IMG/VR virus record: IMGVR_UViG_3300020410_000948
Span: 29,807 to 93,806 of that record
Length of the DNA stretch: 64,000 nucleotides
From: a virus
Strand: one strand, 5' to 3'
Position 1 is the first letter of the stretch. Every line of letters starts with the position of its first letter. Both the position numbers and the translations under genes were made by a program. The notes under the pieces are model-generated. The model worked only from the letters and a program-made list of their open reading frames with translations. It had not been told where the DNA came from and made no database searches. This document shows, in pieces, positions 47,071-60,838 of the stretch.

Positions 47071-47601
47071 TTAAAATACCTCTAAATAAAAGTCATCAAG
47101 TTCATGATAATCTTCATACCCTAGACAGAAGTTACGACGATTTTTAACTGAAGTATCACCGGAATTAGTTACAGTACCTCTTTCAGCCTCGCTATATGCA
47201 ACGACTGTTATGTTCGGAATACTCATACTATTAGTTCCGCTAACAGTAGATCCAACTGCAGTAGCTTCAACATTTGATATCAGCTCGGCGTTAGATATCG
47301 TACCGTTGGCGGAAGAGCCTATAGCGTTTGCAACGGCATTCGGAATACTCATAGAGTTTGTTCCAGCGACAGCGGAACCTATAGCGCCAGCGACAACATT
47401 AGAGATGGGTAAATTATTAGTGAATGTTCCCGCTACGGCAGACCCTATAGCTGTGGCCTCTACGTTAGGTATACTCATAGAGTTCGTTCCACTAGCGGAA
47501 GAACCGATAGCGGTAGCTTCGACATTACTTATAGTAATATCGGATACGCCCCCATCATCAGCATAGGTGAGCGATCCTATAGGACCACCGGAGTAAACCA
47601 T
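47071..47601 (-). CDS. Repeat-containing virion protein
   Basis: A 176-residue protein, about two thirds of which is a tandem repeat. Alternating units of about 19 and 23 residues (ISNVEATAIGSSASGTNSM and SIPNVEATAIGSAVAGT) occur three times each from residue 22 to about 145. The rest is an acidic, Tyr-rich C-terminus (CLGYEDYHELDDFYLEVF). The strict alternation of small and beta-branched residues suggests a beta-solenoid or stacked strands. It is probably a capsid decoration or fibre-like protein; no family recognised. Copy-number change of the repeat would be easy by recombination. Confidence 0.65.
   Translation of the reverse strand: MVYSGGPIGSLTYADDGGVSDITISNVEATAIGSSASGTNSMSIPNVEATAIGSAVAGTFTNNLPISNVVAGAIGSAVAGTNSMSIPNAVANAIGSSANGTISNAELISNVEATAVGSTVSGTNSMSIPNITVVAYSEAERGTVTNSGDTSVKNRRNFCLGYEDYHELDDFYLEVF
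47210..47545 (-). repeat. In-gene tandem repeat (about 126 bases per double unit, three copies)
   Basis: The coding repeat of the 176-residue protein is visible in DNA: GGAATACTCATA occurs near 47217, 47341 and 47468 on the plus strand, spaced about 125 bases. These correspond to the SMSIPN units, with related units between them. Units have diverged, so the array is not freshly expanded. Confidence 0.75.
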
Positions 47602-51319: not shown

Positions 51320-51847
51320 TTAGATAATAGTTGTATTACCTGAACCGTACGGTACGTAAGCCCAAGCGCTTGGTAGATCAACTTCGACCTTGGCATATCC
51401 ATCTTCGTCTACTCCAGACAAGAATCGTCCAACAATTGGCACCATGTCTTTGAAACTATCACCTTCAGCGATCGCACTTTGTGAAACATTACCACTATGA
51501 GCTAAAAATGCAGGTCTACCAGCTAAGCTAGTCGTAGAACCTTCAATAGCATTAGTAACAACAGTTCCCTTACGAAGAATAGTAACTTTACCACCCTTCT
51601 GAACTTCATCTTTGTGTTGGTTAATATGTTGACGAGTGAGGTCAAGATTAACCATATCATTAAGCAAAATACCCATAGGCACAACTCGTGCTCCTGATAC
51701 AGCATAAGTAACCAAGGCAGAACCTTGGTCCATTGCTGCACCACTACCACCAGTGCTTAAAGAAACCACACCACCTCTAGTAGCAACTTCATTCATGAAG
51801 AAGCTAATATCAGTTTGCACTTCATTTCTATCTGATTTAAGAGCCAT
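51320..51847 (-). CDS. Putative capsid decoration protein
   Basis: A 175-residue protein placed between the scaffold and the major capsid. It is Gly/Ala/Val-rich and beta (ATRGGVVSLSTGGSGAAMDQ; then LVTYAVSGARVVPMGILLND; then GKVTILRKGTVVTNAIEG) and ends in ADLPSAWAYVPYGSG-like strands. Size and position match head-decoration or stabilising proteins, which commonly precede the major capsid gene. No family motif recognised. The ribosome site AAGGAG is good. Confidence 0.6.
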   Translation of the reverse strand: MALKSDRNEVQTDISFFMNEVATRGGVVSLSTGGSGAAMDQGSALVTYAVSGARVVPMGILLNDMVNLDLTRQHINQHKDEVQKGGKVTILRKGTVVTNAIEGSTTSLAGRPAFLAHSGNVSQSAIAEGDSFKDMVPIVGRFLSGVDEDGYAKVEVDLPSAWAYVPYGSGNTTII

Positions 51848-51866: not shown

Positions 51867-52562
51867 TTACTTATTAAGGTTAGCAGTTGTTTTAAGAAGA
51901 GAGCCGAACCATTCGCTTGCAGTAGAACGTAGTTCCGTAGATGGATCAAGATCGTCAGCGGCTTCAGCCATTGCAATATCTTCTTCAACTTCTACTTCTT
52001 CTAATTCTTCAGCGCTAGCTTCAGCTTCGTCAGTTTCTTCATCAAGAAGTTCATCTTCAGCTTTGACCTTTTTAGGAGCCATTGCAGCTGGAGCTTCTTC
52101 TTCTTCTTTTTCGTCTTTTTTCTTCATCTCAGCTTTTTTGTTGTACATCTTAGCAACAACAAACTCGAAAGTGCTGTCGTCTAGATTTTCAAACTGAGCT
52201 AAAGTTTCCTCAATCTCTTCTTCTTCAATACCAGCTTCTTTAAGGGAAGCAATTCTTCTTTCAAGAGCTGCTGCCTTTTCGATTTCTGCAATCTTAGCAA
52301 CTGCTTCTTCTTTGGCGGCTTCAGCAACAGAAAGAGCTTCTTCAACTTCAGCTAATTTAGCTAAGGCTTCTGTAGCTTCTTCTGACTTCGAGGCAATAGC
52401 CTCATCTTTAGCAGAGATGGTCTCTTCAAACTTTTTCAATTGAGCTTCAATTGCTTCGGCTTTTTGAGATTCCATTTCTTGCTTCATAGTTTCGTTGGTA
52501 AGACGGGCTTCGCTTAATTCAGCCTTTAGATCTTCCAACTGTTTCTGTAAAACATCGGACAT
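51867..52562 (-). CDS. Scaffold protein from an internal in-frame start
   Basis: Inside the protease-scaffold gene, minus-strand AAAGGAGACTGATATG gives a near-perfect ribosome site six bases before an in-frame ATG at codon 278. The product MSDVLQKQLEDLKAELSEAR and onward is 231 residues: the coiled coil plus acidic tail without the protease domain. The same arrangement is known for lambda C/Nu3, where the scaffold is made in excess from an internal start. The spot is exactly the domain boundary, which makes chance unlikely. Confidence 0.65.
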   Translation of the reverse strand: MSDVLQKQLEDLKAELSEARLTNETMKQEMESQKAEAIEAQLKKFEETISAKDEAIASKSEEATEALAKLAEVEEALSVAEAAKEEAVAKIAEIEKAAALERRIASLKEAGIEEEEIEETLAQFENLDDSTFEFVVAKMYNKKAEMKKKDEKEEEEAPAAMAPKKVKAEDELLDEETDEAEASAEELEEVEVEEDIAMAEAADDLDPSTELRSTASEWFGSLLKTTANLNK

Positions 52563-53393
52563 ATCAGTCTCCTTTATTGATGAAACAGTAATGAATTCAC
52601 TTTTACTTTCACTAAAACTTTTGTTGTCATTCAGTATGACACTTCGAGGATTAGCAGGTTTAGAAACCAAGCCCTTGCCAGAGAAAGATATATTTCTTAA
52701 TAATCGACCTACTGTGTAACCCTCATACTTTCCTGTTCCCCCGTAAGCTCTAAGATGCTTCGTCAAAAATGCCGATGCCTCTTCTCTCTTAACAACCTTG
52801 AACTCTCCCTGTGAATCCTTTAGGGCATAGTCAAAGTTTGGAAACAAACATTCCATGGATACAAACCACTTATTTCCTTCTTCAATTTCCTCTACTATGT
52901 TGTTCATTCTTTCTCGAAGTGATGGGTCACTCCAAGACTTATATAGAACAGCATTTGTAATTATATTGAATTTTTCAGGACTGCCGGCTTCTTCCCATTC
53001 TGCCTGACTATCCATTACGTTTCCGTCAAAGTCAACAATATAATTGCCAGTAATGTGACCGATTATGTCAGCCTCATTGTGCATATAATTAAACTGTTTA
53101 TCTTCAGGAGTTGAACGAGCATCCCACATTTCTTGTGCGTCGAATACATCGTCATTCTTATTCCAGCCAGTACTGACTAAAACAGAGCTAAGATAATACA
53201 AGTCTATTTGTTCTTTGTTTTCTGCCTTAGCACCCATAAACGAAAGAGCTACTTCATGATCGCTCTCAAGTTCAGATGCGGTAGCCTCGATGAGATCTTC
53301 CTTAGACATAACAGGCGAACAATACGCAACAGTATTGTTATTCTGTATAGCATCTTGAAGACCATCTTCGATTTCTTGTGCATAAACTTTCAT
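51867..53393 (-). CDS. Prohead protease-scaffold fusion protein
   Basis: A 508-residue protein. The start at 53393 has AAGGAG eight bases upstream; an in-frame ATG at 53486 lacks a site. Residues 1-270 look like a prohead protease: FNYMHNEADIIGHITGNYIV carries the expected catalytic His region, and KWFVSMECLFPNF the likely nucleophile Ser. Residues 280-430 form a long coiled coil rich in Ala/Glu/Lys (LEDLKAELSEARL onward), as in scaffolds. The C-terminus is very acidic (EDELLDEETDEAEASAEELE). It lies between portal and capsid genes, as expected. An internal start at 52562 probably yields scaffold alone. The exact protease family (S78 or S80) is not certain. Confidence 0.7.
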   Translation of the reverse strand: MKVYAQEIEDGLQDAIQNNNTVAYCSPVMSKEDLIEATASELESDHEVALSFMGAKAENKEQIDLYYLSSVLVSTGWNKNDDVFDAQEMWDARSTPEDKQFNYMHNEADIIGHITGNYIVDFDGNVMDSQAEWEEAGSPEKFNIITNAVLYKSWSDPSLRERMNNIVEEIEEGNKWFVSMECLFPNFDYALKDSQGEFKVVKREEASAFLTKHLRAYGGTGKYEGYTVGRLLRNISFSGKGLVSKPANPRSVILNDNKSFSESKSEFITVSSIKETDMSDVLQKQLEDLKAELSEARLTNETMKQEMESQKAEAIEAQLKKFEETISAKDEAIASKSEEATEALAKLAEVEEALSVAEAAKEEAVAKIAEIEKAAALERRIASLKEAGIEEEEIEETLAQFENLDDSTFEFVVAKMYNKKAEMKKKDEKEEEEAPAAMAPKKVKAEDELLDEETDEAEASAEELEEVEVEEDIAMAEAADDLDPSTELRSTASEWFGSLLKTTANLNK

Positions 53394-53412
53394 TTTATTA
53401 TTCTCCTTAGTC

Positions 53413-53457: not shown

Positions 53458-55563
53458 CTAAGCAAGCGCTGCAAAGGTTGAAGCATAGATGTACCTCATT
53501 TCATCAATGTTAGGTTTTCGTTTTTGATTTTTTACAAAAGAAGCGACAGCCTCTTTAACATTGTTCTTGAATGTAGCCGAAGGTTTTGTATTGCTATCTA
53601 TAATAGATTTTATGACAGACTCATCAATATCCATAAACGGCTCCATGCCTGTCAATATACAAAGCTTAAGATATTCCAATTGATCAAACTCACTTTTTGT
53701 TAAGCTTCTAGCGTTCTTTTTATTGAAGTGATTTAATGCCATTGGAGCAACAAGTTCTGCGATAGTCTTCTGTGACTCGTAAGCCCAAAGAGTTACAGCG
53801 AGAGAGTCTCCAGTTCTAGGAAGAACCCTTTTCTGCTTTCTAGGGCCTGTATCTCTAGAGTTTAAAGGTCTACCACCTCTTGGATCTACAAGGTCACGCT
53901 TTTCTTCCTGCGGTGGTTGTTTGGATTTCTCTTCAAGTTTATTAATCTCGTCAACCTCTGATGGCGGCAAGCCTAGTCCATTCAAATAGATATCCTTGTC
54001 TATTATATCTTTAGTCAAAGCTATCTTAGCAATATCGTCTTTGTGTTGGGGGTTATGATAAGGACCAGCTTTCTTTGGAGATAGCGCATCATTCACTCTA
54101 GCTCTTTCCTCTCTTCGTACACGTATCTTCTCAATAGATGGCAGCTCTCTAAATCTTTCAAGAAGTGTCTCGTGAGATATAATATCTCTGTCTGCCAATT
54201 GAACTAACAATTGTTTTTGGGCCGCTTCATCAGAAAGCACAATAGAATCGAAATGTATTTCGGCAGGAAATCTAAAACCCATAGCTTTTTGCACTAACTT
54301 GATTTCGTGTTGCCAAAACTGTTTTAATACTTCTCTTCCATACTCTAGTCTTTCAATGAGAGTTTTTAGTGATACATAATTGTTTGTGTATCCACCGCTT
54401 GCTCCCGCAGCTCCCGTTAGGGTTGGTGGAATCCCAAGACCAGCGTAAACACTAGTAAGAACTGGTTGATATTTTTCTGAACCTAAGAACTTGTATACCT
54501 GAGTGCTACTTTCTTTGAAGTCAATTTCTGGACCCCAAACCAAATCCATTGTACCTCCGCCAACATTACTAGCCAAGATATCTCTTAGTTTATTAATGGC
54601 AGCTTTAGTAGGAATAATCTTATGATCTAAATCACCAATCCTCCAAAGTCTTACGTTTGAGATTGCGCCATCTAGAGCAGCTAGGTCTGCAAGCTTCATT
54701 TTTTCTAGCATAATGATATCATCGAGAATAGCATAGATCATAGGGTTTGCCCACATGTTCCAGTCGTCTTTCTTGTAATGGAACATCATGACCTTTTCTC
54801 TGTCTAAAGGTATCTCTCTTTCCCCTCCGTTAAACTGCTTTAGCATCGCAGGAGGGAGAGGTTTATTATTACCCTCTCGACCATTATACATCAATAGAGA
54901 ATTTACTGTGGTTTTTGATACCTTGAGGACATACTCCAGATCTCCTGTAAAAGCTGCTGTTTCGCTATTCTTTACGCTAACAGCTAAAGGGTTTAAGAAA
55001 TCATACTTCCAAGGAATCTCTCTTCTAGAAACAGGAATGTCTTCTATCTTCATGTCTGGGGCTGCGCTACTTCTCTTTAGTTCAGCTTCTTTTTTCTTGC
55101 TAATTTTGGCCGTTCTTCTTTTTGCTACAACGTTACCACATCTGTAGAGATAATTTAAAAATCTTTCAGACCGATCTAAGCCATTTACATTTTCAAACCA
55201 TTTTCTATAGAATCTTTCGATGGACTTGTTGGGATGTACTAAAGTAAGCCCTTGAGACGCAAAGTCTCCCATTAGATCAATAACGTTTCTTACAATACCA
55301 ACTTTCTCGTAGGCTTGCATACACATTTTCATTATTCTTTTTTGCTGCTTAGGTACAGCTTCACCCGGACGAAACGCAGTGTAGTCATTTCTATAGAAGC
55401 TCGGACGAACAGAGCGAGATGATTCAACATCTATAAAAGTTCTGTTGTCGTAAGCATATGATTTTTGTATTCCGTCATAGGCATGAACATTGTCAGAAGA
55501 CTGTTGATAGGCCTTACTTTTCTCTAAATCATCAGACCATGTTAAGTAAAGATCGTCGGACAT
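53458..55563 (-). CDS. Portal protein
   Basis: A 701-residue protein. The segment AYEKVGIVRNVIDLMGDFAS, then QGLTL is the conserved early helix-strand of large-phage portals. It is followed by YLYRCGNVVAKRRTA, the KVMMFHYKKDDWNMWANPMI region and DFKESSTQVYKFLGSEKYQP, typical of the stem and wing. YAGLGIPPTLTGAAGASGGY, then YVSLKTLIERLEYGREVLKQ belongs to the crown side. The long C-terminal extension (residues 540-701) is Lys/Glu/Pro-rich and helical. It lies directly downstream of TerL with its own late-promoter motif. It forms the dodecameric ring through which DNA enters the capsid. Confidence 0.88.
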   Translation of the reverse strand: MSDDLYLTWSDDLEKSKAYQQSSDNVHAYDGIQKSYAYDNRTFIDVESSRSVRPSFYRNDYTAFRPGEAVPKQQKRIMKMCMQAYEKVGIVRNVIDLMGDFASQGLTLVHPNKSIERFYRKWFENVNGLDRSERFLNYLYRCGNVVAKRRTAKISKKKEAELKRSSAAPDMKIEDIPVSRREIPWKYDFLNPLAVSVKNSETAAFTGDLEYVLKVSKTTVNSLLMYNGREGNNKPLPPAMLKQFNGGEREIPLDREKVMMFHYKKDDWNMWANPMIYAILDDIIMLEKMKLADLAALDGAISNVRLWRIGDLDHKIIPTKAAINKLRDILASNVGGGTMDLVWGPEIDFKESSTQVYKFLGSEKYQPVLTSVYAGLGIPPTLTGAAGASGGYTNNYVSLKTLIERLEYGREVLKQFWQHEIKLVQKAMGFRFPAEIHFDSIVLSDEAAQKQLLVQLADRDIISHETLLERFRELPSIEKIRVRREERARVNDALSPKKAGPYHNPQHKDDIAKIALTKDIIDKDIYLNGLGLPPSEVDEINKLEEKSKQPPQEEKRDLVDPRGGRPLNSRDTGPRKQKRVLPRTGDSLAVTLWAYESQKTIAELVAPMALNHFNKKNARSLTKSEFDQLEYLKLCILTGMEPFMDIDESVIKSIIDSNTKPSATFKNNVKEAVASFVKNQKRKPNIDEMRYIYASTFAALA

Positions 55564-55621: not shown

Positions 55622-57616
55622 TTAATATATATTGTCCATATTTTCAGTAAACCAAGAGGGTCCCCTATACATCGGACCGTCTTCTTTATTATCAATAGTA
55701 TTGGATTTTTTAGCAAACCCACCATAATGGTCAAACGTTTGTACTGTTTTTTCAACAGACATTTGTCTAGCGGACATGTTAGCCATGATTAAGGAAGAGT
55801 AGCGGTCTTTACGCAATCTTCTTTTCCTTCCTGCCGCAACTTTTACTTCAGGAGTATCCCATCTTTCTCTCCCCGTGCCGGTTTGGGTCATGACTATCAT
55901 AGATAGTTCGTTCTTTAATTCTTCTATCTCCATAACGCAATCTTCCAGAGTATCATACAGTCTCCCCTCTCTTCCGTCCTCCTCTGCTGATAGACCTAAG
56001 CTAACCGCATCAAAATCTGGAAACAGCACAAGTTTGTCCTCGAAGTCCTTTCTTAATCCGTGATTCGCCTCTGCTAGCCAATCGTATTTTGCAAACTGGC
56101 ACATCTTCAAGATATGCAGTCCGGGTTCATTGTCTGTATCTTTAGGCTTATCCCAGTCTATAACGGGCCAGATCTTATGTTCTCCCTCTCTGACTTTATC
56201 TTTATCATGCAAAGCCTCCATTACGGCTATACCGCCGCCTTGAGCATCTAGAGCTATTTCAGCGCAAGGAAATACCCTCATTAAATTTCGTATTTTTCTT
56301 GCACAGTATGAGTAGAAGTCGTCCTCGTCCGCCATATTTGATTTTAGTTGTTCTCTATGTTGGCTTCTGTTTGTAGTCCATACATGTACAACTCTACGAT
56401 GTGTACCGTTTAGCTCTAACACGACAATACTAAAGTTATCAACCTCAGACGCTGGGTCAACTCCAAAAATATATTTTTTCTCAGGATCGCCTTTGAGGAG
56501 TGCCTCAAAATGGACTTCTTCATCATTGAACTTTATATTGTTTGATTCTGAAGCTACGCAGTTTTCTATGAGTGATCTCTTGAAAAAACCCTGACTGTCT
56601 GTTGTAAAACATGCTCCGTACTCCATCTGGAAAATGCCTGCATGAACTGTGGCTCTGGCTCTTGCTATCTGGCCTTCATCCATAAATCCTTCTGGAAGTG
56701 TTGTGACGGGCATCCTAATGACAGAATATTCATCCCAAGCAAAATCTTCTGGAACATCCGGACCAAATACTTCTTGCAGCTTAAATCTATCGCCTCCACT
56801 ATTCACTATAGCTTTATATCTTTTCCAGTAATCAGCAAAGTGATTAAAATCATAATATGCTGTTCCGGAAAGTATGATTTGGTTTGATTTGTCGGTGAGG
56901 GGGTTGTTAGCATCTGCAGTATAGGGGATTCCCAGCTCTTCCGCTTTTTTCTTGCTGGCTTTGGTTTTAACTTTTTCTATTGGTGATGCTGACACTGCCG
57001 CAAAACCCGCAACAACATTCTCAAATATGTCACGAGGTATGGATGCAAACTCGTCAGCAATAATATCGTTTGCACGCTGACCACGAATCTTGCTTCCGTC
57101 ACCGAGAGGTAAACAAGTTATAGTGCTATCGCCAATATGCATTACACATCTATCGACATCTCTTCTGGGGCCGCTATTAGAGCCGCACAGATCCCTCAGA
57201 ATGGGCGCGTTCTTCCAAATGGTGTCCATATACTCAAAAAGCACTTTCGACTGTCTAAACGCTGCACCGACGACGATAATCTTTCTTCTCGGCATAAACA
57301 ATGCTCGAAGTAGTGGATATACAGATAGAATAAAAGACTTACCCATACCACGACTACCAATAAGCATTGGAAACTTTTTATTCCACATTTCTTGCAGTAT
57401 CAGAGATTGAAAGGGGGATACCTCAATGTTTAAGATATATTTACATGCGAACGAAAAATATTCTGGCTGCATAAAGAGCCAAGCTATTCTTTCTAGAATT
57501 TTATCATTGTCGCCATCATGAAATATAAAATCTATCGGATTAAATAAATCTTCTTCTTTTACGCTTATGCCTAGCCATGCGTCTTGTAATACTTTTTCTA
57601 TGTTTTCTTTTTTCAT
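55622..57616 (-). CDS. terL: Terminase large subunit
   Basis: A 664-residue DNA-packaging motor. Walker A is LIGSRGMGKSF (about residues 84-94), followed by the IIVVGAAFRQSKVLFEYM segment. Walker B is DIIADEFASIP (about 187-197), and the coupling motif ILSGTAYYDFNHF follows. The C-terminal RNase H-type nuclease shows FGVDPASEVDNFSIV and EIALDAQGGGIAVME with the expected aspartates. It pairs with the putative small subunit four genes upstream and with HNH and ERCC4 nucleases between them. The start overlaps the ClpP-like gene's stop (TAATG). Confidence 0.95.
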   Translation of the reverse strand: MKKENIEKVLQDAWLGISVKEEDLFNPIDFIFHDGDNDKILERIAWLFMQPEYFSFACKYILNIEVSPFQSLILQEMWNKKFPMLIGSRGMGKSFILSVYPLLRALFMPRRKIIVVGAAFRQSKVLFEYMDTIWKNAPILRDLCGSNSGPRRDVDRCVMHIGDSTITCLPLGDGSKIRGQRANDIIADEFASIPRDIFENVVAGFAAVSASPIEKVKTKASKKKAEELGIPYTADANNPLTDKSNQIILSGTAYYDFNHFADYWKRYKAIVNSGGDRFKLQEVFGPDVPEDFAWDEYSVIRMPVTTLPEGFMDEGQIARARATVHAGIFQMEYGACFTTDSQGFFKRSLIENCVASESNNIKFNDEEVHFEALLKGDPEKKYIFGVDPASEVDNFSIVVLELNGTHRRVVHVWTTNRSQHREQLKSNMADEDDFYSYCARKIRNLMRVFPCAEIALDAQGGGIAVMEALHDKDKVREGEHKIWPVIDWDKPKDTDNEPGLHILKMCQFAKYDWLAEANHGLRKDFEDKLVLFPDFDAVSLGLSAEEDGREGRLYDTLEDCVMEIEELKNELSMIVMTQTGTGRERWDTPEVKVAAGRKRRLRKDRYSSLIMANMSARQMSVEKTVQTFDHYGGFAKKSNTIDNKEDGPMYRGPSWFTENMDNIY

Positions 57617-58275
57617 TAAAGTCTCTTAAGTATATTTTCTACTGAATTGTTTTGGCCTTTACCAAACAATATATCTGCAAAGCCATATTCTACGGCACGT
57701 TCGCCATCAAGTATCCAATCCTCTTTTACATTTAGTCTTCGTTTCAAAATTGATTTTATCTCTACAGGTTTTTTGCCTTTGAAAGCCGAGCCCTTCTTGC
57801 AAGCAGATACATATATATCATACATCATTTCCTTTGACTTTTTAAGGGCCTCAGCGTTCGATATAAACTGCTTTGTGGTTCCACTGGTCTCACAAGACCC
57901 TTCGTGTATTAACCACTCTGTGTGGGGGTGTGTGACCCTTAAACCTTTACCTATGACAGCTTGTGGTATAATGCTTCCCATAGAAGATGCTGAACCATAG
58001 CAAATAAATAAGAATTTACACTTACTTGCTCTTATTGCGTCGTATATTGCAAAGCCTGCATTTTGGTCACCACCAATATTGTACTGATGAATAATTATTG
58101 GGTTACTGTTTAAAGATTCAAGCATTGTTAGATTTTTGATAAACTCTACAGCATGTTTTGACCCCAACCCATCATCTCCTGACTCAAGGAATATTTCTCT
58201 TGTCTGAGAAAGCAGTCCATAGTCGTGCCAGTTTGATAAAGCTGAATATATTTGTGATCTATTCGGTCGGTTCAT
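57616..58275 (-). CDS. ClpP-like serine protease
   Basis: A 219-residue protein. FICYGSASSMGSIIPQA is the ClpP 'G-x-A-x-S-M-G' nucleophile elbow (Ser about 98). VTHPHTEWLIHEGS holds the catalytic His (about 124). KEDWILDGERAVEYGFAD matches the Asp-containing segment of ClpP (about 186). In phages such ClpP-type domains serve as prohead maturation proteases. Here it sits directly before TerL rather than next to the portal, while a second protease-like domain lies in the scaffold gene. It could be the maturation protease or a partner of host Clp ATPases. Confidence 0.8.
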   Translation of the reverse strand: MNRPNRSQIYSALSNWHDYGLLSQTREIFLESGDDGLGSKHAVEFIKNLTMLESLNSNPIIIHQYNIGGDQNAGFAIYDAIRASKCKFLFICYGSASSMGSIIPQAVIGKGLRVTHPHTEWLIHEGSCETSGTTKQFISNAEALKKSKEMMYDIYVSACKKGSAFKGKKPVEIKSILKRRLNVKEDWILDGERAVEYGFADILFGKGQNNSVENILKRL

Positions 58276-58786
58276 GGAACATCTCGTTCAACCTCTTAAA
58301 AATACTATTCGCTACTAAAAAGGCGTTATCTTTGTTATCACAGAAAAGCACGTGTATGCCGTACCAGTTTTGGTATTCCATCAAAGATCTGAGCAGATAC
58401 TTCCCTGTTATGCGCCGCTTCTTTATTTGTGCCTCTACGTAAGCCGGTCTGGTTTGCTTCATGTAATCAGAAAAAATAGAATTTGGATAGTCTACTAAGT
58501 CTGACATAGAAAATTCACAAATAATATATTTAAATGCGAATTCTTGCATCCTCTGCATCTCTTTATCAAAAGCTTTCTTTTTCTTTCCAAGGTTGTTAGC
58601 TATTTCCTCTACGGAAAACTTTCGTTCGATACAGACCATATCCTCAAAACCTTTGATCGTATAGTCTCCGGTCTTTAGTGTTTCCTGCTCCATGCCGGCA
58701 CACTTATCGTATTCACCAAAGTACCATCCTTTTTGTTCTCTGGTATCTTGCAATACTGTATATTTCGGTATAGTCTTTTTAGCCAT
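58259..58786 (-). CDS. ERCC4/XPF-type structure-specific nuclease
   Basis: A 175-residue protein consisting of just the ERCC4 nuclease fold. VLQDTREQKGW has the first catalytic acid and 'R-E' (Asp14, Arg16, Glu17). LKTGDYTIKG provides the Gly-Asp-Tyr acid (Asp41). VCIERKFSVEEIANNL carries the signature E-R-K (54-56). The later YIICEFSMSDLV completes the sheet. XPF/Mus81 family enzymes cut branched or flap DNA near junctions. In this packaging gene group it may resolve replicated, recombined DNA before packaging, the role T4 endonuclease VII plays. There is no C-terminal HhH domain. It overlaps both neighbours. Confidence 0.85.
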   Translation of the reverse strand: MAKKTIPKYTVLQDTREQKGWYFGEYDKCAGMEQETLKTGDYTIKGFEDMVCIERKFSVEEIANNLGKKKKAFDKEMQRMQEFAFKYIICEFSMSDLVDYPNSIFSDYMKQTRPAYVEAQIKKRRITGKYLLRSLMEYQNWYGIHVLFCDNKDNAFLVANSIFKRLNEMFHEPTE

Positions 58787-59036
58787 CTATCAGTCCTAAC
58801 AAATAAGCCTCGTAATGCCCCTCATTACCCGTTACTTCCTTGTGACAGTTATAACATAGGGTTATGCCATTGTTTACATCAAACCTCAAAGAAGAAGCGC
58901 TAGCCCATTTTCTAATGTGGTGAACGTATAGCTTTTTCTTTTTGCCGCCCGTCTTACACATCTTACAAGTAAACTTATCTCGCTTCAAGACATCCATCCG
59001 AAACTTCTTGTAAGCTGGATCGTCGTAATTCCTCAT
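58779..59036 (-). CDS. HNH endonuclease of the packaging group
   Basis: An 85-residue compact HNH protein. CKMC (24-27) and CYNC-His (61-65) form the structural zinc site. LYVHHIRKW gives the catalytic His pair (39-40), with Asn in FDVNNGITL. Short HNH proteins of this type next to terminase genes assist TerL cleavage in HK97-like phages (gp74), so a packaging role is likely rather than homing. Its 5' end overlaps the Gmd-2 gene by 62 bases, the longest overlap in the late region. It ends just inside the ERCC4 gene. Confidence 0.85.
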   Translation of the reverse strand: MRNYDDPAYKKFRMDVLKRDKFTCKMCKTGGKKKKLYVHHIRKWASASSLRFDVNNGITLCYNCHKEVTGNEGHYEAYLLGLIDG

Positions 59037-60021
59037 CTATATCTGCCTCCGTCATTAATTCTGCTAGTCTTCTGAATTTGATTTGTGGTTCCCATCCGAG
59101 CTCTTCTCTTGCTTTGGTCGGGTTACCAAGTAAGTAATCAACTTCAGCGGGTCTAAAGAATTCAGGGTCAATGTACACGTACTCATTCCAATTGTCAATG
59201 CCAGCGTACCCAAAAGAGCATTCCAAAAACTCCTCAACACTGTGTGTTTCTCCAGTAGCGATGACATAATCGTCTGGTTCTTCTTGTTGCAGCATGAGCC
59301 ACATTCCTCGTACATAGTCTTTTGCATGTCCCCAATCTCTCCTTGCTTGTAGGTTTCCAAGTCTTAGTTTTGGGAAATTCTCATCTTTCCCAGAAGCAAC
59401 AAATTTTCCAATCCATTTTGTTATTTTTCGCGTGACGAAGTTTTCTCCTCGTCGCTCGCTCTCATGGTTGAACAGAATCCCGCTAGAAGCATGAATTCCA
59501 TAGCTGTCTCTATAATTTCTTACCAAGTGATGTGCTGCAAGTTTTGCAATCGCGTAAGGCGACTGGGGCATAAAAGCCGTGTTTTCGTCTTGATATTTTC
59601 CACTACTTGTTACGGTAAAGTTTTTGCCAAACATTTCACTGGAAGAAGCCTGATAAAATCTTATTTCGTTACATCTAGGAGAAACTCTGATCGCTTCCAA
59701 TATATTTAGGCATCCGCCAGCAGTAACATCCCAAGTTAGTGTCGGTTGTTTAAAAGATGTCCCAACGTGAGACTGAGCAGCAAGATTGTAAACTTCATCT
59801 GGCTCATACTTATTAATAATGTCAGAGACACAAAATCCATCGGTAATGTCTCCCTCTACCAAAACAAAGTTTTCGTTTTTCTGATGTTCGCCAATTCTTT
59901 CCGTTGTGTCCACGCTACTTCTTCTAGCAACGCCAACTACTTTATAATTTTTAGATATTAGCAAGTCAGTTAAATAACTTCCGTCTTGGCCGGTAACTCC
60001 AAATACAATCGCTGTCTTCAT
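58975..60021 (-). CDS. gmd: GDP-mannose 4,6-dehydratase (copy 2, in the packaging region)
   Basis: A 348-residue protein. The start at 60021 follows AAAGGTGAA and lies one base past the preceding stop; the in-frame ATG at 60045 is inside that gene. It carries VFGVTGQDGSYLTDLL (NADP loop), ARRSSVDT, YQASSSEMFGKN, SPYAIAKLAAHH (Tyr-x-x-x-Lys), NFVTRKITKW and LQARRDWGHAKDYVRG. All Gmd signatures are intact. It differs clearly from copy 1 at 5267 in loops and linkers, so they are not a recent duplicate. Its place between small terminase and HNH genes is unusual; it could supply a virion- or host-glycan precursor late in infection. Confidence 0.92.
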   Translation of the reverse strand: MKTAIVFGVTGQDGSYLTDLLISKNYKVVGVARRSSVDTTERIGEHQKNENFVLVEGDITDGFCVSDIINKYEPDEVYNLAAQSHVGTSFKQPTLTWDVTAGGCLNILEAIRVSPRCNEIRFYQASSSEMFGKNFTVTSSGKYQDENTAFMPQSPYAIAKLAAHHLVRNYRDSYGIHASSGILFNHESERRGENFVTRKITKWIGKFVASGKDENFPKLRLGNLQARRDWGHAKDYVRGMWLMLQQEEPDDYVIATGETHSVEEFLECSFGYAGIDNWNEYVYIDPEFFRPAEVDYLLGNPTKAREELGWEPQIKFRRLAELMTEADIDEELRRSSLQEVSDGCLEAR

Positions 60022-60022
60022 A

Positions 60023-60838
60023 TTATTCACCTTTAAAAGTATCACTTGTTAGAAACGGTTGGTCTACTTGACCATCTTCATATTTAATGTATTCTGATAA
60101 ACGCTCTTTCTCTGCTGCTGTGGCTAGTCGCATTTTTTCCATCTCTACACCTATCTGGGTTCTGAAAGTAGGATCTGATGCAATCTTTTTCACCAATGAC
60201 GCAAACGTTAACTTAGAATCTTCGATAGCCTTGATTCTTTGTTCCCTAGTACCCTTCAGGTCCTTGAGCATTGTTGCTTTTCGTGCTTGAAGATCCTTAT
60301 AATCCTTAGATAGCGTCTCTTGCGCTGCTCTTTGCATAGCCACTTGCCGCTCTAAGGACGAGATGTAGTCACGGTCCTGATCTTCTTTATCTCTTTGTTT
60401 CTCGGCTATGATGAGAGCCTGAACGCCCTCAATATCTTCTAGATTTTCTTGTTGTGTCGTCAAGATCCTATTCATTAGAATCTCAAGCTTAATTGTATCC
60501 ACGATTTGGATTTCTTCTGTGTGAAACACATCGTCTTTGAACTGCGCCCACATTTTTGTAAAGTGGAACTGAAAAAGCTCTAATTCGGAACTTGAGAACT
60601 GAGTCAAAAGCTCCTTAAAGTATGGCTTACTTTTAAGTTCCTGATGAGCCTCGATTTCTCTCTTCTGACTTTTAGATAAGCCGACATTCGTTTCGATCCA
60701 GCTTTTAACCGAGGATACATTCCTACCTAACTGATCCGCTATGTGCTCAGGAGAAAGAGCCTCGCAATTCTGCTCGATAAATTCAATTTCATCTACTGAG
60801 AACCGCCCCTTCTTTTTGTCTTTGCTAGTTTCAGACAT
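60023..60838 (-). CDS. Putative small terminase subunit
   Basis: A 271-residue protein with an N-terminal SANT/HTH-like domain (FSVDEIEFIEQNCEALSPEH; then IADQLGRNVSSVKSWIE), which would bind the packaging site. A long helical coiled coil spans residues 130-215 (SSLERQVAMQRAAQETLSKD; then YKDLQARKATMLKDLKGTRE) for ring assembly, and the C-terminus is charged. This layout is that of many small terminases. It lies before Gmd-2, HNH, ERCC4 and TerL on the same strand and two bases after the sigma-factor stop. Recognition is by domain layout and position, not by family motif. Confidence 0.6.
   Translation of the reverse strand: MSETSKDKKKGRFSVDEIEFIEQNCEALSPEHIADQLGRNVSSVKSWIETNVGLSKSQKREIEAHQELKSKPYFKELLTQFSSSELELFQFHFTKMWAQFKDDVFHTEEIQIVDTIKLEILMNRILTTQQENLEDIEGVQALIIAEKQRDKEDQDRDYISSLERQVAMQRAAQETLSKDYKDLQARKATMLKDLKGTREQRIKAIEDSKLTFASLVKKIASDPTFRTQIGVEMEKMRLATAAEKERLSEYIKYEDGQVDQPFLTSDTFKGE

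Follow-up and report, generated by a model that had tools for sequence, protein, structure and literature searches.

The window analysed here, a stretch of 64,000 nucleotides whose own numbering is used throughout, comes from a virus record of 93,806 bases and contains an open reading frame of 508 residues on the minus strand, running from an ATG at 53393 to a stop at 51867. The original prediction did not give the strand of this gene. Along the direction of transcription, the gene order is ERCC4-type nuclease, ClpP-like protein, terminase, portal, the 508-residue gene, cement-like protein and major capsid protein. The 508-residue gene is placed between the portal and the cement and major capsid genes, an order also found in relatives. 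The interval between portal and capsid genes is the customary location of prohead protease and scaffold, and no second scaffold reading frame was found in it. The genes at the locus are as follows.

51867..53393, minus strand: gene of 508 codons for a probable protease-scaffold fusion, with a frame unbroken across the domain junction in the sampled relatives
53403..53408, minus strand: Shine-Dalgarno (SD) sequence AAGGAG serving the main start, with 9 nt between it and the ATG at 53393
53458-55563: portal, the upstream neighbour of the fusion gene
55622-57616: terminase, upstream of the portal in the direction of transcription
57616-58275, minus strand: ClpP-like serine protease, matching head maturation protease families
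51320-51847: cement-like protein (PF22758, 25.6 bits, slightly below the cut-off), followed by the major capsid protein

Cultured matches to this head region are remote. The terminase is 26% identical to those of Bacillus phages of the Staley type, and the nearest cultured match of the major capsid protein, in Bacillus phage G, reaches 24%. For the fusion gene, no relative was found among 50,697 cultured phage records searched with different queries. Several other genes of the region are worth recording in their own right. A GDP-mannose dehydratase/epimerase-like gene (58975-60045, minus strand) adjoins the head genes, and a similar gene is present at that position in related loci such as L096 and L125; in locus L111, a sugar-nucleotide dehydratase-like gene upstream (L111:31-1135) carries an apparent intein-like insertion (with a C-terminal end ...GVVHN|S ahead of the conserved PRRGEQFVTRK). 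A small reading frame at 58779-59036 (minus strand) has an HNH endonuclease-like pattern (CxxC...HH...N...CxxCH), and the reading frame at 47071-47601 (minus strand) is built of short near-identical repeats (ISNVEATAIGSSASGTNSMSIPN).

Relatives of the fusion gene were collected from IMG/VR in four scans with different queries, each of which gave at least about 600 matches, and 80 loci were kept per scan. The pooled scans contain at least 277 loci and at least 194 non-identical genes, hereafter the listed genes. Such scans favour close relatives, and the N-terminal domains share a pairwise identity of at least 49% among the matches listed. In one of the scans, one of the six search peptides overlapped the internal start codon discussed below. 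Three further homologues, L441, L442 and L443, come from contigs in genome assemblies that binning had assigned to SAR202, Flavobacteriales and Gemmataceae; these contigs may be of phage origin, and their hint at a host is weak at most. A scan with L443, the most divergent homologue, found no deeper relatives.

The first half of the encoded protein is a probable prohead protease, as indicated by invariant alignment columns, an AF2 model and Foldseek comparisons.

52629..53393, minus strand: domain of residues 1-255 at the N terminus, probably a prohead protease
codon 53081-53079, minus strand: candidate catalytic His105, in an invariant column
codon 52859-52857, minus strand: candidate catalytic Ser179, in an invariant column

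The invariant motifs of this domain are NKNDD-F, MH-E--IIGHIT (containing His105 and His113), VSMEC (containing Ser179) and GLV-PANP-S. His105, His113 and Ser179 are invariant in representative relatives, and their candidate catalytic role is assigned by pattern resemblance. The motif order, judged by eye, resembles that of T4 gp21 and HK97 gp4, which offers a lead. Modelling with 38 relatives gave a poor result (pLDDT 51), while an AF2 model built from 107 diverse relatives reached a pLDDT of 76.4 and a pTM of 0.68. When the N-domain model was compared by Foldseek with predicted viral structures, 38 matches with E<=1e-3 were obtained, at modest TM-scores of 0.3-0.45; their names include prohead protease, COG3740 head maturation protease, capsid maturation protease and XkdF, and gp19 of Bacillus phage G is a cultured form among the best. 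The predicted fold of the N-domain resembles that of the HK97-type prohead proteases.

In sequence searches, the N-domain has no family match in Pfam or NCBIfam, and the fusion gene gave no usable match in Pfam, NCBIfam, PHROGs or PDB sequences; a weak match to phrog_16389, which has no annotated function, was seen for 24 of 38 members (best E 1e-4). None of the 38 members matches the Peptidase S78 or S77 profiles, to which the controls HK97 gp4 (S78) and T4 gp21 (S77) were assigned, and the Peptidase S49 profile recognised its positive control, lambda C, and not the N-domain. Alignment by hhalign to T4 gp21 and HK97 gp4 also gave nothing, but the control comparison of T4 with HK97 was equally empty. 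A fold search of the PDB with the N-domain model returned nothing significant, the herpesvirus proteases appearing there with non-significant E values of 1-2.3.

The second half of the protein has the features of a scaffold.

51867..52562, minus strand: predicted scaffold-only frame of 231 residues, 25.6 kDa, pI 4.3 (composition, heptad scan, alignment)
52563..52628, minus strand: variable linker, residues 256-277, carrying the internal ribosome-binding site (alignment)
52569..52575, minus strand: internal SD sequence AAAGGAG, read (at)A AAG GAG (Ile-Lys-Glu); GGAG in 194/194 listed genes, in two registers
52560..52562, minus strand: internal ATG, codon 278; ATG in 194/194 listed genes

The C-terminal part is acidic (29% D+E), lacks Cys and His, contains just two Gly and terminates in the conserved motif LRSVASEW-GS; this composition and this motif are as expected for a scaffold. 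Its strongest coiled-coil-like heptad pattern starts at residue 282, four residues past the internal Met. From position, composition and helical pattern, we infer that this part serves as a scaffold.

The junction between both parts reads TCA TCA ATA AAG GAG ACT GAT ATG TCC GAT on the minus strand. As the original prediction had described, AAAGGAG precedes an in-frame ATG at 52562, which is codon 278; the gap is 6 nt, and the count of 231 codons from there onwards confirms the predicted length of the shorter frame. Its placement of this start at the boundary of protease and scaffold is borne out as well, the linker of residues 256-277 preceding the ATG and the heptad pattern following at residue 282. 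The start codon at the junction is ATG in all 194 listed genes and never GTG or TTG. Residue 2 of the predicted short product is Ser in 178, Ala in 5, Thr in 5 and Pro in 3 genes (191 of the 194 listed), residues that are usual at this position in genuine N-termini. In 157 of the 194, the start region folds less than random gene positions, which is partly owing to its higher AT content. Pairing with the anti-SD sequence is on average stronger for the internal SD (-8.6 kcal/mol) than for the main SD (-7.1 kcal/mol) across the listed genes; taken singly, however, the internal SD is the stronger one in only 116 of the 194, and SD strength alone therefore does not predict an excess of the short form.

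Conservation of the site in relatives, which the original prediction had proposed to examine, was analysed in the sampled loci. All 194 listed non-identical genes have the ATG at the junction with a GGAG upstream of it, and so do L441-L443; no relative that keeps the gene and has a decayed or lost site was found among the matches listed. The distance between GGAG and ATG is 5, 6, 8 or 9 nt in 2, 112, 76 and 4 of the listed genes, respectively. In L079:4001-5581, where the gap is 9 nt, the ATG is one codon farther from the SD and AAGGAG is kept; L187, L148 and L117 have the same 9-nt gap. Synonymous resampling of the same peptides would place a GGAG 5-9 nt upstream of the ATG in 31.7 genes, compared with the 194/194 observed, and only 3 of the 1,974 other in-frame ATGs of these genes have such a site.

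The GGAG occurs in two registers relative to the reading frame. In 116 of the 194 listed genes it is read as AAG-GAG, encoding Lys-Glu, while in the remaining 78 it is shifted to GGA-GA, the register of the second large clade, encoding x-Gly-Asp/Glu, where x is K, I, L, Q, E or N (for example AAA GGA GAT, ATA GGA GAT or CAA GGA GAA). The Gly codon of the second register is GGA without exception in the 76 listed genes with a gap of 8 nt. Codon choice in the first register is similarly restricted: among the first 81 genes, GAG encodes Glu275 in 80/80, in contrast to 22.6% in the remaining gene, and AAG encodes Lys274 in 74/74, in contrast to 41%; none of the other conserved columns, 149 in all with these two, is as strongly fixed in its codon. 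A single register change suffices to explain the distribution on the tree, over whose total length of 35 substitutions/site the site is kept. The 194 are related genes and not independent trials, and what weighs in the argument is the single change of register and the length of the tree. Since the same GGAG is combined with different residues in the two registers, the RNA signal outlasts the residues it encodes. Retention of an SD through a register shift would be explained by selection on the RNA and not by selection on the protein; on this comparative evidence, it is an active ribosome-binding site, and not a protein motif, that accounts for the conservation pattern. The evolutionary evidence is unusually clean because the signal occupies two reading frames and has survived in both. 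Although the linker differs among the genes in both length and sequence, no stop codon separates the two domains in any listed relative. With the fusion frame unbroken and the internal site conserved, selection appears to act on both products, the long fusion and the predicted short scaffold.

One frame very probably encodes two proteins, a protease-scaffold fusion and a predicted scaffold-only product made from the internal start. Ribosomes that start at 53393 on the late-gene mRNA would produce a 57-kDa fusion with an N-terminal protease domain and a C-terminal scaffold, while ribosomes recruited to the internal AAAGGAG would start at 52562 and produce the 25.6-kDa scaffold alone. As the scaffold segment is common to both forms, the short form would build the prohead core and the long form would co-assemble with it via this segment, so that a restricted amount of protease would enter the prohead and later cut scaffold and shell proteins there. 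The steps that we infer are that the short form is translated and exceeds the fusion in amount, that the C-terminal part acts as a scaffold and that the N-domain is proteolytically active.

Conservation at the junction could in principle reflect the protein, the run Lys-Glu...Met-Ser-Asp being, for instance, a self-cleavage site between protease and scaffold whose likeness to an SD is incidental. Cleavage does occur at some protease-scaffold junctions, such as the R site described for herpesvirus in PMC12474303, and Met-Ser-Asp is conserved at the junction in the alignment. However, Glu and Lys are encoded there by GAG and AAG far more consistently than codon usage predicts, and the 78 listed genes with GGAG in the other frame encode different residues; the two registers largely refute a protein motif, which makes this explanation very improbable, and a cleavage site could still coexist with the internal start. 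Equally, the SD might be a disused relic of a separate scaffold gene that was once fused to a protease gene, as could be suggested by Bacillus phage G, where the protease-like gene of gp19 is separate from the downstream genes, and by the variable linker, which resembles a former intergenic stretch. A relic is expected to decay, whereas this site is intact in all listed genes over the whole tree; an origin of the gene by fusion is possible, but disuse of the site does not fit, and we consider it scarcely credible. A scaffold-only protein might also be made from a nested transcript with its own promoter within the gene, and not from a second start on the long mRNA; the nesting of UL26.5 in UL26 of herpesvirus (PMC12474303) is a precedent for such a transcript. 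A scan of the coding strand for promoters of the sigma70 type gave a single, weak promoter-like match at 53035-53007 and a total below that of shuffled sequences. The internal SD would be required even with a nested transcript, and a separate promoter is quite unlikely.

Internal initiation would yield the scaffold alone even if the maturation protease were encoded elsewhere, namely by the ClpP-like gene, with the N-domain being structural or inactive. The match of the ClpP-like protein to head maturation protease families speaks for this assignment, and so does the finding that, of 40 loci with sufficient space for such a gene, most have a ClpP-like relative ahead of the terminase. In seven loci, however, no ClpP-like relative was found, although the N-domain is present in all of them; His105 and Ser179 do not vary in the representative relatives, and the predicted fold matches prohead proteases. 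The slot upstream of the terminase contains an HExxH-type small metallopeptidase-like reading frame in four of these loci (L096, L126, L137 and L109), a trypsin-like one in L128 and nothing evident in L111 and L125, so that the replacements in this peptidase slot are apparently non-homologous. Because the N-domain is retained where no ClpP-like relative was found, it is the better candidate for head maturation. A division of labour between both proteins is possible; a structural or inactive N-domain is unlikely.

The arrangement of protease-scaffold fusion and internally started scaffold has several counterparts. In Mu I/Z, KS10 gp28/gp29 and PaMx73 gene 27, the scaffold is nested in-frame in the protease gene and has its own SD and start, as here. 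The Mu Z start, CAG GAG AAC AAA CCC ATG, is closely similar to the present KE/QE junction; Mu I, however, belongs to Pfam PF10123, whereas the present N-domain has no Pfam match. In-frame nesting in many other phages is stated in a passage of the KS10 paper (PMC2628397), and the PaMx73 paper (PMC4378225), in its treatment of this gene, proposes the internal start and SD on similar grounds. Lambda C and Nu3 are overlapping in-frame genes for a protease-scaffold and a scaffold-only protein, located between portal and decoration genes as in the present locus; the overlap is attributed to Shaw and Murialdo 1980 where PMC8508860 cites it. T4 gene 21, a prohead protease gene, is likewise annotated with internal translation initiation, but its internal start is inside the protease and yields no scaffold, which in T4 is encoded by the separate gene 22.

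The original prediction regarded the locus as the economy of lambda C/Nu3, evolved in a different protease-scaffold background. Likeness to C/Nu3 gains support from the conservation of the site in all listed relatives. A different background is also correct with respect to lambda, C being a Peptidase S49 and the N-domain having no S49 match, no family match and a predicted fold that resembles HK97-type prohead proteases. It is not a novelty in itself, as Mu I/Z and KS10 already combine in-frame nesting with a non-S49 protease. One economy, a common scaffold segment with a limited amount of attached protease, thus recurs over different protease families, and a large uncultured phage group, with at least about 600 IMG/VR matches, joins the cases in which scaffold dose is apparently set through internal initiation by ribosomes. 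Gene callers that assign one protein to each frame would overlook the scaffold of such phages.

Outside the phages, herpesvirus UL26/UL26.5, as outlined in PMC12474303, combines an N-terminal protease, a C-terminal scaffold and a nested in-frame scaffold-only product, the organisation predicted here; UL26.5 is a separate nested gene of a eukaryotic virus, whereas the present gene contains a ribosome-binding site inside one frame. Cheng et al. 2004, by the title given among the references of PMC10052503, report homology between phage prohead and herpesvirus proteases. The present gene might be the phage counterpart of UL26/UL26.5 with a homologous protease fold, the nested fusion being ancestral to tailed phages and herpesviruses; we regard this as a long shot, which, if true, would mean that the nested protease-scaffold fusion was not invented repeatedly. 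The principle is already known from lambda C/Nu3, Mu I/Z and UL26/UL26.5, to which the present case is a well-supported addition; what is new here is a protease background without a match in the libraries searched, and evolutionary evidence that extends beyond one sequence.
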